42,226 bases of DNA from a virus: positions 1 through 42,226 of the IMG/VR virus record IMGVR_UViG_3300046683_000353; one strand, 5' to 3'. The notes below the pieces were generated by a model. That model had not been told where the DNA came from and searched no databases. It saw only the letters and a list, made by a program, of their open reading frames with translations. Below, in pieces: positions 1,957 through 4,008 of the stretch (positions are counted from its first letter, which is position 1; each line of letters opens with the position of its first letter). Made by a program: the position numbers and the translations under genes.

Positions 1957-2041
1957 ACGAAGCAATAATAGACTAGGCGCTTTCCCGAGAAAAGTCTAGG
2001 CTGCGATCGGCGCTATTCCGCGCCGCAGGAGGTCATCACAC

Positions 2042-2836
2042 ATGCGAAGGATACTTTTAGGCTTTACAGCCCTTTTTGCTTTGACAGGCGCGGCCAGCGC
2101 CGACACTTTTGTCACCCTGGGCGGCGTCAGCTGGAACACCACCAACTCCGGCAACGTCTCGCTCGACCCCACCGTCCCCGGCGGCAACCAGCCGCAGAAC
2201 GCGCCGTGCATCATCTGCGGCGCGAACCAGCCAAACCAGCCTGCCGGTTTTGGCTACAACGACTACAGCAACGCCGGCAATACCGTGACTGTTTCGGCGT
2301 TTAGCGACCAAGGCAACGGTGGCCGCAATACGCTGGCGGACGACACCATCGGCCTCGTCAATGCTGGCTACACCATCAACGCCGGCTCGCCGTTCCTGTC
2401 GTTCCTGCTGGCGAACGGCGCGACGCTGGGCAGCCTCGGCTTCTCGATCGGCCTCGACGTCAACGACAACAATACTGCTCAGACGTTGAACAGCTTTTAC
2501 TTCCTCGACCTGACCACGCACACGGTACTGGCGTCCTATACCGGCGGCACCGCCGGCAACCTGACCAACGCCAACAACGGCACGGGTTTCCCCGACTACA
2601 CGTTGAGCGGCTTCTCGCTCAACGGCGTCAATAGTGGCGATCAGATCCTGTTCGTCGCGCGCATGTCGGGCCTCAACGACGGCCCGGACAGCTTCTTTCT
2701 TGAGCCTGGCCCTGCTGCCGTTCCTGCGCCGCTGGTCGGTGCTGGTATCCCCGGCTTGCTTGCGGGGCTCGGCCTCTGGGCCATGAACCGCTGGCGCAAG
2801 TACCGCAGGGAAGATCCCTTTGCTGCGCTGGCTTAA
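2042..2836 (+). CDS. Secreted protein with PEP-CTERM-like sorting tail (264 aa)
   Basis: The N-terminus is a signal peptide (MRRILLGFTALFALTGAASA-D). The mature part is Gly, Asn and Thr rich with beta-type sequence, as in exported PEP-CTERM proteins. The C-terminus begins at VPAPLVGAGIPG, passes through a hydrophobic segment (LLAGLGLWAM) and ends in a basic cluster (NRWRKYRR) plus a short extra tail. This tripartite end is the architecture of exosortase-sorted proteins. The VPAP..GAG..G variant is, from memory, frequent in Bradyrhizobium and relatives. A GCAGGAGG site lies just before the ATG. It is the kind of accessory gene a phage acquires from its host; it may alter the cell surface. Role is inferred only. 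Confidence 0.8.
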   Translation: MRRILLGFTALFALTGAASADTFVTLGGVSWNTTNSGNVSLDPTVPGGNQPQNAPCIICGANQPNQPAGFGYNDYSNAGNTVTVSAFSDQGNGGRNTLADDTIGLVNAGYTINAGSPFLSFLLANGATLGSLGFSIGLDVNDNNTAQTLNSFYFLDLTTHTVLASYTGGTAGNLTNANNGTGFPDYTLSGFSLNGVNSGDQILFVARMSGLNDGPDSFFLEPGPAAVPAPLVGAGIPGLLAGLGLWAMNRWRKYRREDPFAALA

Positions 2837-3062
2837 ACGAAAACTTCGCCCTCCCTTACCGGAGGGCGAACCCTATCGAACCAATCCGACGCCGGGCAAT
2901 CTATATGCGCTGATCAAGAAGCGTTGCCCGGTGTGCGGGCTGGCGCCGCCGGATTGGGTCGAGGGGCTGGCCGACGAGGACGCCGTCTGCGCCCGCTGCG
3001 CCGCGCATTACCATGTCGATCAGGAACGCAAGCTGGCTTCCCGGCTCAATCGGATGCGCTAG
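2820..3062 (+). CDS. Small zinc-ribbon protein (80 aa)
   Basis: The product contains CPVCGLAPPDWVEG and CARCAAHYHVDQE, two CxxC pairs separated by about 20 residues, which fits a zinc ribbon. The N-terminus is basic (RWLKRKLRPP). No ATG is available; the best start is TTG at 2820, which overlaps the end of the PEP-CTERM-like gene by 17 bases and has AGGGAAG upstream. The 3' end overlaps the convergent amidase gene by 17 bases. It is the last gene of the rightward operon. Function unknown. Confidence 0.7.
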   Translation: MLRWLKRKLRPPLPEGEPYRTNPTPGNLYALIKKRCPVCGLAPPDWVEGLADEDAVCARCAAHYHVDQERKLASRLNRMR

Positions 3063-4008
3063 GGTGCGGGAAGATGATCTCGACGTCGTCGTCGGTTTCC
3101 AGTCCGAGATCCGCCAACAGTCCTGGCGACAGGTCCGCCACTCGCCCGGTGGCCTCATTCGGTCCCCAATCGGCGCAGAATGCTGCCATCTCCTGCCCCG
3201 TTGACGGCACGCGCACCAGGGCAATGCCGTCCGCCAGCATTTCCTTGGGCGTGACGTCGTAGTTCCAACGGCAGGCAATGTAGTGGACGTAGGGGTTTAA
3301 TCGACGCGCCAAATTTGACGTGCCTTCCGGCTGGAACGGCAGGAACAGGTGCTGGTTGTCGTCGGTGATGTCCTGGTGCAGCGCCAGCCCCTCGTCGGCA
3401 TCGACGCCAAAATCGTCCGGCCCACCAAAGTAGCTGCACGCGCCAATGGCGTGGAACAGCGGCTCGTTTCCCGGCGGTTCGAAGATGTCCTCGCCGTCGT
3501 CGCCGCCCGCCACATCGGCAAGGCCAATGCAGATGGCGTCGAAGTTGTTGCGATAGGTGGTGGCGTCATACTCGCTGTCGACGAAGCAGACCTCGATCAG
3601 CACGGCGGGCATGGCAGTGTTATTGAGGAAGAACAGATCCGTACGCTTCTTGGCGCCGCGATCGGGAAAGCCACAGTCCGCGATCGCCGCCGAGATCCGC
3701 GCCGACAGCGATTGCTGGGTGACGTAAAGGCACTCCGTTCCCATTGCTTTTTCAGTCTCGACATAGGCGTTGAAGTGCACGCTGATGTCGAGATCCCGCG
3801 AGTGGCCGTTGTGCCAATCCACGATGCGGTTGAGGTTTTCGTTCTGTGAGCTGGAGACCGTGTCGTGATACGTCATCACTTCGTGGCCGCGATCGCGCAG
3901 CTCGATGGCGAGCTGGTCGACGACGCGAGTGGCTTCCTCGACCTCGTTGAGAATGCCGACGGCGCCCTGACAATCGGTGGAGTGGCCGGACGAAATACAG
4001 AAGCGCAT
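3046..4008 (-). CDS. Endolysin: N-acetylmuramoyl-L-alanine amidase with C-terminal DPBB-like domain (320 aa)
   Basis: Residues 1 to about 170 form an Amidase_3-type zinc amidase. The signs are His9 in SSGHSTDCQGA, a Glu in NEVEEA, His in DISVHFNA and the catalytic Glu in VLIEVCFVDS. It would cleave the bond between muramic acid and the stem peptide. The C-terminal third contains a segment from about residue 260 (VPSTGQEMAAFCADWGP, then TGRVADLSPGLLADLG, then DDVEIIFP) that resembles the double-psi beta-barrel of RlpA-like proteins. No signal peptide is seen, so a holin would release it. It follows small membrane-protein genes, as in a lysis cassette, and has a GAGGTGA ribosome-binding site. 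Confidence 0.88.
   Translation of the reverse strand: MRFCISSGHSTDCQGAVGILNEVEEATRVVDQLAIELRDRGHEVMTYHDTVSSSQNENLNRIVDWHNGHSRDLDISVHFNAYVETEKAMGTECLYVTQQSLSARISAAIADCGFPDRGAKKRTDLFFLNNTAMPAVLIEVCFVDSEYDATTYRNNFDAICIGLADVAGGDDGEDIFEPPGNEPLFHAIGACSYFGGPDDFGVDADEGLALHQDITDDNQHLFLPFQPEGTSNLARRLNPYVHYIACRWNYDVTPKEMLADGIALVRVPSTGQEMAAFCADWGPNEATGRVADLSPGLLADLGLETDDDVEIIFPHPSASD

Follow-up and report, generated by a model that had tools for sequence, protein, structure and literature searches.

A portable gene of environmental phages encodes a predicted exported protein with a candidate exosortase-type sorting tail

Introduction

Can a phage use the protein-sorting machinery of a Gram-negative host to display one of its own proteins on the infected cell? 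The question is raised by a gene near the start of a 42,226-nt viral contig from IMG/VR (the whole stretch of DNA analysed here, hereafter the window). An initial annotation, made from the sequence, read the gene product as a secreted protein with a Gly/Asn/Thr-rich body and an exosortase-type tail, and proposed that the phage uses the host's exosortase to place it on the envelope or in exopolysaccharide. We have followed this proposal through the gene itself, its relatives in other phages, the distribution of its tail and the exosortases of candidate hosts.

Results

One window gene combines a signal peptide with an exosortase-type tail

The features of the locus are collected in Table 1. Among 254 window ORFs of at least 60 amino acids, only the one at 2042-2836 has hydrophobic stretches at both termini together with a basic cluster and a P.P motif. 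The protein begins with MRRILLGFTALFALTGAASA, followed by D, which by its sequence features and conservation is a textbook signal peptide of the kind that PEP-CTERM proteins carry; N-terminal charge, hydrophobic core and AxA are kept throughout the family alignment. The body is rich in Gly (14.8%), Asn (12.8%), Thr (10.3%) and Ser (8.4%) and contains no Lys and 1.0% Arg, the Ser/Thr/Asn-rich, weakly basic composition of PEP-CTERM proteins. Their hydrophobic helix and terminal basic cluster are present as well, with a Kyte-Doolittle value of 1.68 over 17 residues and the cluster RWRKYRR 8 residues from the end; in the predicted structure the tail helix spans residues 235-257. The proline motif is where the protein departs from the type: P228 and P230 are invariant in the family, and the window's VPAP, having no Glu, is not a Pro-Glu-Pro motif.

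Table 1. Features in and around the tail-bearing gene, in window coordinates
Feature	Position	Strand	Basis and remarks
Gene for 264-aa secreted protein with exosortase-type tail	2042..2836	+	Open frame, IMG/VR relatives, body dN/dS; stop codon inside span
Shine-Dalgarno site AGGAGG	2027..2032	+	9 nt before ATG; read from sequence
Signal peptide, residues 1-20	2042..2101	+	Predicted cleavage after AASA; read from sequence and family conservation
Mature body, predicted beta-sandwich	2102..2707	+	Near-invariant CxxC and DGPDSFF in alignments; AF2 model
Candidate sorting tail VPAPLVGAGIPGLLAGLGLWAMNRWRKYRR, residues 227-256	2720..2809	+	Motif, hydrophobic helix, basic cluster; conserved prolines, tail exchange, exosortase neighbours
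C-terminal extension EDPFAALA	2810..2833	+	Varies among relatives (alignment)
Endolysin gene	3046..4008	-	phrog_435, E 4.9e-50; convergent with tail-bearing gene; context, not partner
Perfect 13-nt inverted repeat, 17-nt loop	1894..1936	.	Upstream of gene; possible transcription boundary; no T run
Terminator-like hairpin for leftward (late) transcripts	2845..2870	-	Just beyond gene 3' end; 10-pair stem, T-rich tail

The architecture first described for this gene is borne out, and purifying selection on the body and the C-terminal placement of such tails in viral contigs, both reported below, set it above chance. The extension behind the basic cluster had been counted as six residues and called unusual. 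Eight residues in fact follow the cluster's final Arg, and such a terminus is not out of the ordinary: it varies among relatives, and fewer than 10 extra residues follow the tail in 87% of PEP-CTERM proteins (PMC1569441). Direct family assignment of the window protein with Pfam, NCBIfam and PHROGs yielded nothing usable, and an apparent link to XDP1 proved confined to the tail in the relatives checked.

Overlapping the end of the gene is an 80-aa ORF with a TTG start (window 2820-3062, plus strand) whose two CxxC pairs give it a zinc-ribbon-like appearance. It is conserved in L003 at 2111-2353 and is probably translated together with the tail-bearing gene.

The body defines a family of environmental phage proteins

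Searches of IMG/VR recovered about 190 or more loci with relatives of the window protein, and a repeat search with a divergent member added more. None were found among 50,697 GenBank phage records or in PLSDB plasmids. The same holds for cellular genomes, where a motif scan of 84,980 species genomes and a profile search, run without a positive control, of 392 genomes from the family of a Bradyrhizobium metagenome-assembled genome (MAG), the likely host family, detected no relative of the body. The close host homologues that the initial annotation suggested looking for therefore did not turn up, and its view that the architecture is rare in phages does not hold, as hundreds of environmental contigs carry it, though relatives of the body are missing from GenBank phage records.

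The body is under strong purifying selection, with dN/dS of 0.03-0.2 for most close pairs. DGPDSFF is invariant and the CxxC pair nearly so in the family alignment. One relative (L008, 9953-10717) has lost both cysteines, with PAIISG in place of PCIICG, so the pair is not an absolute requirement.

An AF2 model of the body alone is a beta-sandwich (pLDDT 86.6, pTM 0.88). Its best structural match, a weak one, is the C-terminal domain of an Akkermansia glycosidase (8pxu_B; Z 7.6, rmsd 3.2, 117 residues aligned), followed by a scatter of carbohydrate-binding modules and lectins (Z 4.3-5.3), in the noise range of the structure search. Foldseek returned no match with E below 0.001. Assigning a fold through either the whole protein or the body alone was abandoned, since both gave beta-sandwich matches at noise level only.

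The gene occupies varied genomic contexts in phages

Window genes typed by PHROG include those for endolysin, tail fibre, capsid, portal, terminase, helicase, exonuclease and polymerase. The portal is nearest to that of Rhizobium phage RHph_I3_18 (52% over 73%), followed by Microcystis phage Mwe-JY13 and Bradyrhizobium phage ppBjS10J-1, and the host of the window phage is likely a member of the Rhizobiales. In window-type phages the gene converges with those for endolysin and tail fibre. Elsewhere it lies in a late operon, about 24 nt behind terL and ahead of the head genes in three contigs with HK97-like head genes (L037, L040 and L051), or near an integrase. It has no fixed partner: the commonest neighbour family appears in 10 of 68 loci, and we therefore propose that the gene acts alone or with parts supplied by the host.

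Several smaller observations concern these surroundings. Directly downstream of the gene, five phages encode a family of small secreted proteins of about 80-124 aa (L111 7159-7419, L114 10854-11189, L119 10800-11075, L128 5280-5522 and L129 10748-11122), of which the L129 member has no PHROG match. In the window, a near-duplicated MSERTDLDGTY[YH]SGAA, noticed by eye, starts two different small ORFs at about 149-235 and 1231-1317. Support for the terminator-like hairpin in Table 1 is weak, because the window holds 3 such hairpins and shuffled sequences lead one to expect 1.8.

Tail classes are exchanged on a constant body

The 91 distinct members of the family do not share one tail. The VPGPxxGAGLPGL kind is found on 46 of them, TPLPAS.. 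on 29, VPEPGSL.. on 11, VPELSTWxMMILGF.. on three, and other kinds on the remaining two. On a tree built from the body, tail type changes at least seven times, with the PEPxxWA kind arising three times, compared with a mean of 38.8 changes after shuffling. The proline motifs are present in all members and are exchanged solely for other classes of sorting signal.

The alternative tails are recognizable with curated models. Between them, relatives of the TPLPAS, VPEPGSL and VPELSTW types match PF07589/TIGR02595, TIGR03370 and NF035944. L021 exceeds the cut-offs of both PF07589 (23.8 bits; cut-off 20.7) and TIGR02595 (22.5; cut-off 16), L047 passes PF07589 at 21.4, and L016 passes TIGR02595. Scores against the other two models stay below cut-off (VPLPA 18.5 of 25.35, PEPxxWA 24.5 of 35). 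The window protein itself matches neither the PEP-CTERM models (TIGR02595, PF07589) nor a VPxxP model. The initial annotation had named such a profile search as its check and a missing match, together with a lack of export, as grounds for giving up the sorting-tail reading; the window protein goes against it in this respect, and the relatives that pass PEP-CTERM cut-offs speak for it. Taken at face value the test would mislead, because this tail class has no model while relatives with other tails pass theirs; the absent match is a gap in the library rather than a refutation. The window protein is thus outside the strict PEP-CTERM family, by model and by motif, yet judging from its sequence it would work like a member, and several of its relatives are inside.

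Exchange also runs in the other direction. L078 and L068 are 98-100% identical in nucleotide sequence over most of what lies outside the body (flanks, signal peptide and tail), with an L080-like body in between. In this mosaic the mature domain has been swapped as a cassette, while the sorting signals on either side of it stayed in place.

The same tail class is carried by unrelated phage proteins

Scanning viral contigs for the tail pattern VP[GA]P..GAG.PG gave at least 120 matches, and a scan for PEPxxWA gave 32. Among the viral-contig matches listed, none of the 165 tails of the VPGP and PEPxxWA types is more than 60 residues from the C-terminus, and a signal-peptide-like start is present in 148 of the 149 complete tail-bearing ORFs. 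The bodies in front of these tails fall into at least six unrelated sets, with at least 44, 35, 11, 10, 7 and 6 distinct sequences, the first set being the window family. The strict tail pattern occurs 8 times in species genomes and in at least 42 of the viral loci that were retrieved; its cellular carriers are limited to Bradyrhizobium and alphaproteobacterial MAGs, and all have an exported-looking body with the tail at the C-terminus.

Among the matches listed, unrelated bodies that share a tail also occur close together, as pairs or trios, in about a dozen contigs. L193, L207, L231, L232, L256, L271, L281 and L301 are contigs in which such neighbouring genes all end in the VPGP..GAGLPGL tail.

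A divergent exosortase lies beside the tail class in some alphaproteobacteria

A search with PF09721 found no exosortase in 41 phage contigs and none in four MAGs with VPGP tails; this model misses the divergent enzyme described here. Both Bradyrhizobium MAGs among the four contain a protein over the cut-off of the exosortase/archaeosortase signature TIGR04178 (25.0 and 27.4; cut-off 23). These homologous proteins have a Cys in PCSSL/PACSSL, an Arg in NVTRI and a His further on. Behind each gene come a small ORF resembling EpsI and a gene resembling chain-length determinants, as identified by eye. NCBIfam has a named subfamily neither for this enzyme nor for the window's tail class.

Of 199 genomes in the Bradyrhizobium MAG's family, 10 contain the divergent exosortase according to BLAST, and 13 match a profile of the tail. 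Six genomes have both (hypergeometric P 4e-6, for related genomes that are not independent); several of the single tail-profile matches are weak alone (E 2e-4 to 9e-3). In G130, G142, G145, G179 and G204 a small, mostly Gly-rich protein with a signal peptide and an [A]PxP..xAGLP-like tail adjoins the exosortase gene. G003 and G001 have 9 tail matches each, which resembles the distribution of PEP-CTERM proteins, found several per genome if at all (PMC1569441). No exosortase was found in the tail-rich MAGs G001 and G004. The exact VPGP..GAGLPGL tail is uncommon in the family, present in 4 of 199 genomes, and exact-pattern tails coincided with the exosortase in 1 genome, an association we had found unconvincing; the adjacent gene pairs revealed by the profile search changed this view.

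Loci of the divergent exosortase, recognized by the TIGR04178 signature only, include L168 (G003 C491), L169 (G002 C60) and L174-L180. Often the gene next to that of this alphaproteobacterial enzyme encodes a small, Gly-rich secreted protein ending in the same tail.

Discussion

Because tails are swapped on one body, a body is swapped between fixed ends, unrelated families share the tail, and the tail class is encoded beside an exosortase, the window's tail class is very probably a host-matched exosortase sorting signal. We propose that the signal peptide would send the phage protein via Sec to the periplasm, where the C-terminal tail would anchor it in the inner membrane, leaving the VPxP..GAGxPGL motif on the outer side of that membrane. 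An exosortase supplied by the host would cut at the motif and pass the beta-sandwich body on to the infected cell's outer surface or exopolysaccharide, with the phage keeping its tail matched to the host enzyme. Anchoring and cleavage by the host exosortase are likely, going by the sequence relationships. The gene would then be portable cargo, its tail class swapped on transfer between phages and its body swappable between fixed ends. Such a portable gene, with Sec export and handover to a host exosortase, is in our view the best explanation of the data and a reasonably probable one. Counting against it are the window tail's failure to match a curated model, the two tail-rich MAGs in which no exosortase turned up, the weakness of several single tail matches and the varied position of the gene. 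The initial proposal of host exosortase use is partly supported: the predicted export and the exosortase-type tail hold up, given the swapping among sorting classes and the exosortase neighbourhood in related bacteria; a strict model match does not. As to what the displayed body does, our first choice, offered tentatively and by analogy, is that it shields glycans or receptors at the cell surface, or occupies them, which would keep additional phages, and the progeny of the phage itself, from binding the infected or lysed cell; altered host aggregation or exopolysaccharide ranks next.

In that next-ranked account, which we regard as unlikely without dismissing it, the same displayed protein would alter the surface in a way that favours the infected cell or lysogen, binding exopolysaccharide or neighbours and changing aggregation or biofilm. 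A predicted beta-sandwich body suits this role, and Zoogloea needs PEP-CTERM proteins to form flocs, according to work cited in PMC9012009 and PMC12642866. An integrase over cut-off is present in 13 of 38 IMG/VR records searched and in the reference phage RHph_I3_18, and in four phages (L007, L008, L013 and L101) it lies within 1 kb of the gene, a usual place for lysogenic conversion genes. Against this, the terL-head operon position in other phages points to lytic expression, and a tyrosine integrase was sought in the window phage and not found. It is improbable that the tail is a mere stop-transfer anchor, holding a periplasm-facing protein in the inner membrane to block DNA entry or act there with no exosortase involved. 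A hydrophobic helix and an Arg cluster would suffice for that, and the window tail has no model match, but an anchor does not account for prolines kept in all members, for replacement by sorting-signal classes alone, some of them over curated cut-offs, or for the same tail class beside exosortase genes. We prefer Sec export with exosortase handling because tails are exchanged only for sorting tails and exosortase genes are adjacent.

A spanin-like protein or a protein of lysis timing is suggested by the adjacent, convergent endolysin gene in the window and in L003, L007, L008 and L013. The endolysin is on the opposite strand, however; phages have no lysis partner of the gene in common, its neighbours in many of them are terL, portal and capsid genes, and a large exported G/N/T-rich body is unlike spanins, all of which makes a lysis function very unlikely. 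Even less credible is a host gene or flank mistaken for a phage gene. PEP-CTERM-type proteins are typically bacterial and IMG/VR contigs may include host flanks, but many unrelated phages have the gene in the midst of their endolysin, terL, portal and capsid genes, and it has no relative in the cellular genomes searched by motif or, lacking a positive control, by profile. Taken beyond this family, the reading of the tail as a host-matched sorting signal would make display a general strategy of environmental Gram-negative phages, with at least six unrelated bodies on exchangeable tails that fit the host exosortase, and we lean towards this wider view.

Searches of a literature collection for phage PEP-CTERM proteins or phage-encoded exosortase substrates found none. 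If the proposal is true, phages exploit an additional route of surface display in Gram-negatives. Interchangeable tails would then provide a sequence handle on the host type of uncultured soil phages, as tail identity would report the host's sorting type and hence host range, and the natural swaps on a constant body would amount to a ready-made experiment on exosortase specificity. VPxPxxGAGLPGL and the divergent alphaproteobacterial exosortase would form a pair with neither a curated tail model nor a named subfamily, and the enzyme with its adjacent, apparently dedicated substrate is compact enough for bench testing.

SasX of staphylococci is reportedly a prophage-encoded LPXTG surface protein in Gram-positives. 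SasX-type proteins offer an analogy, as phage gene products displayed by a host's transpeptidase sorting; they depend on sortase and LPXTG in Gram-positives, whereas the phages described here infect Gram-negatives and carry exosortase-type tails.

The closest known system is PEP-CTERM/exosortase (EpsH; TIGR02595 and PF07589; Haft et al, 2006, PMC1569441), whose substrates, like the window protein, combine a signal peptide with a motif, a helix and a basic cluster, and whose cargo is likewise a Ser/Thr/Asn-rich body low in basic residues and without other homology (PMC1569441). Unlike them, the window protein is phage-encoded, its tail reads VPAP..GAGIPGL rather than PEP, and one body carries several tail classes. 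Of the related sorting classes, VPLPA-CTERM (TIGR03370) and PEPxxWA-CTERM (NF035944) align at the right place with the tails of many relatives, at scores below cut-off. On the enzyme side, the divergent exosortase passes TIGR04178 with its Cys, Arg and His in place and matches no named subfamily. For the proposed effect, the analogy is with Llp, the superinfection-exclusion lipoprotein of T5, also a small protein that a phage sends to the host envelope (PMC9586334). Llp plugs FhuA as a lipoprotein, and the window protein would be displayed by way of exosortase; the outcome common to Llp and the proposed shielding would be lost adsorption to infected or lysed cells (PMC9586334).
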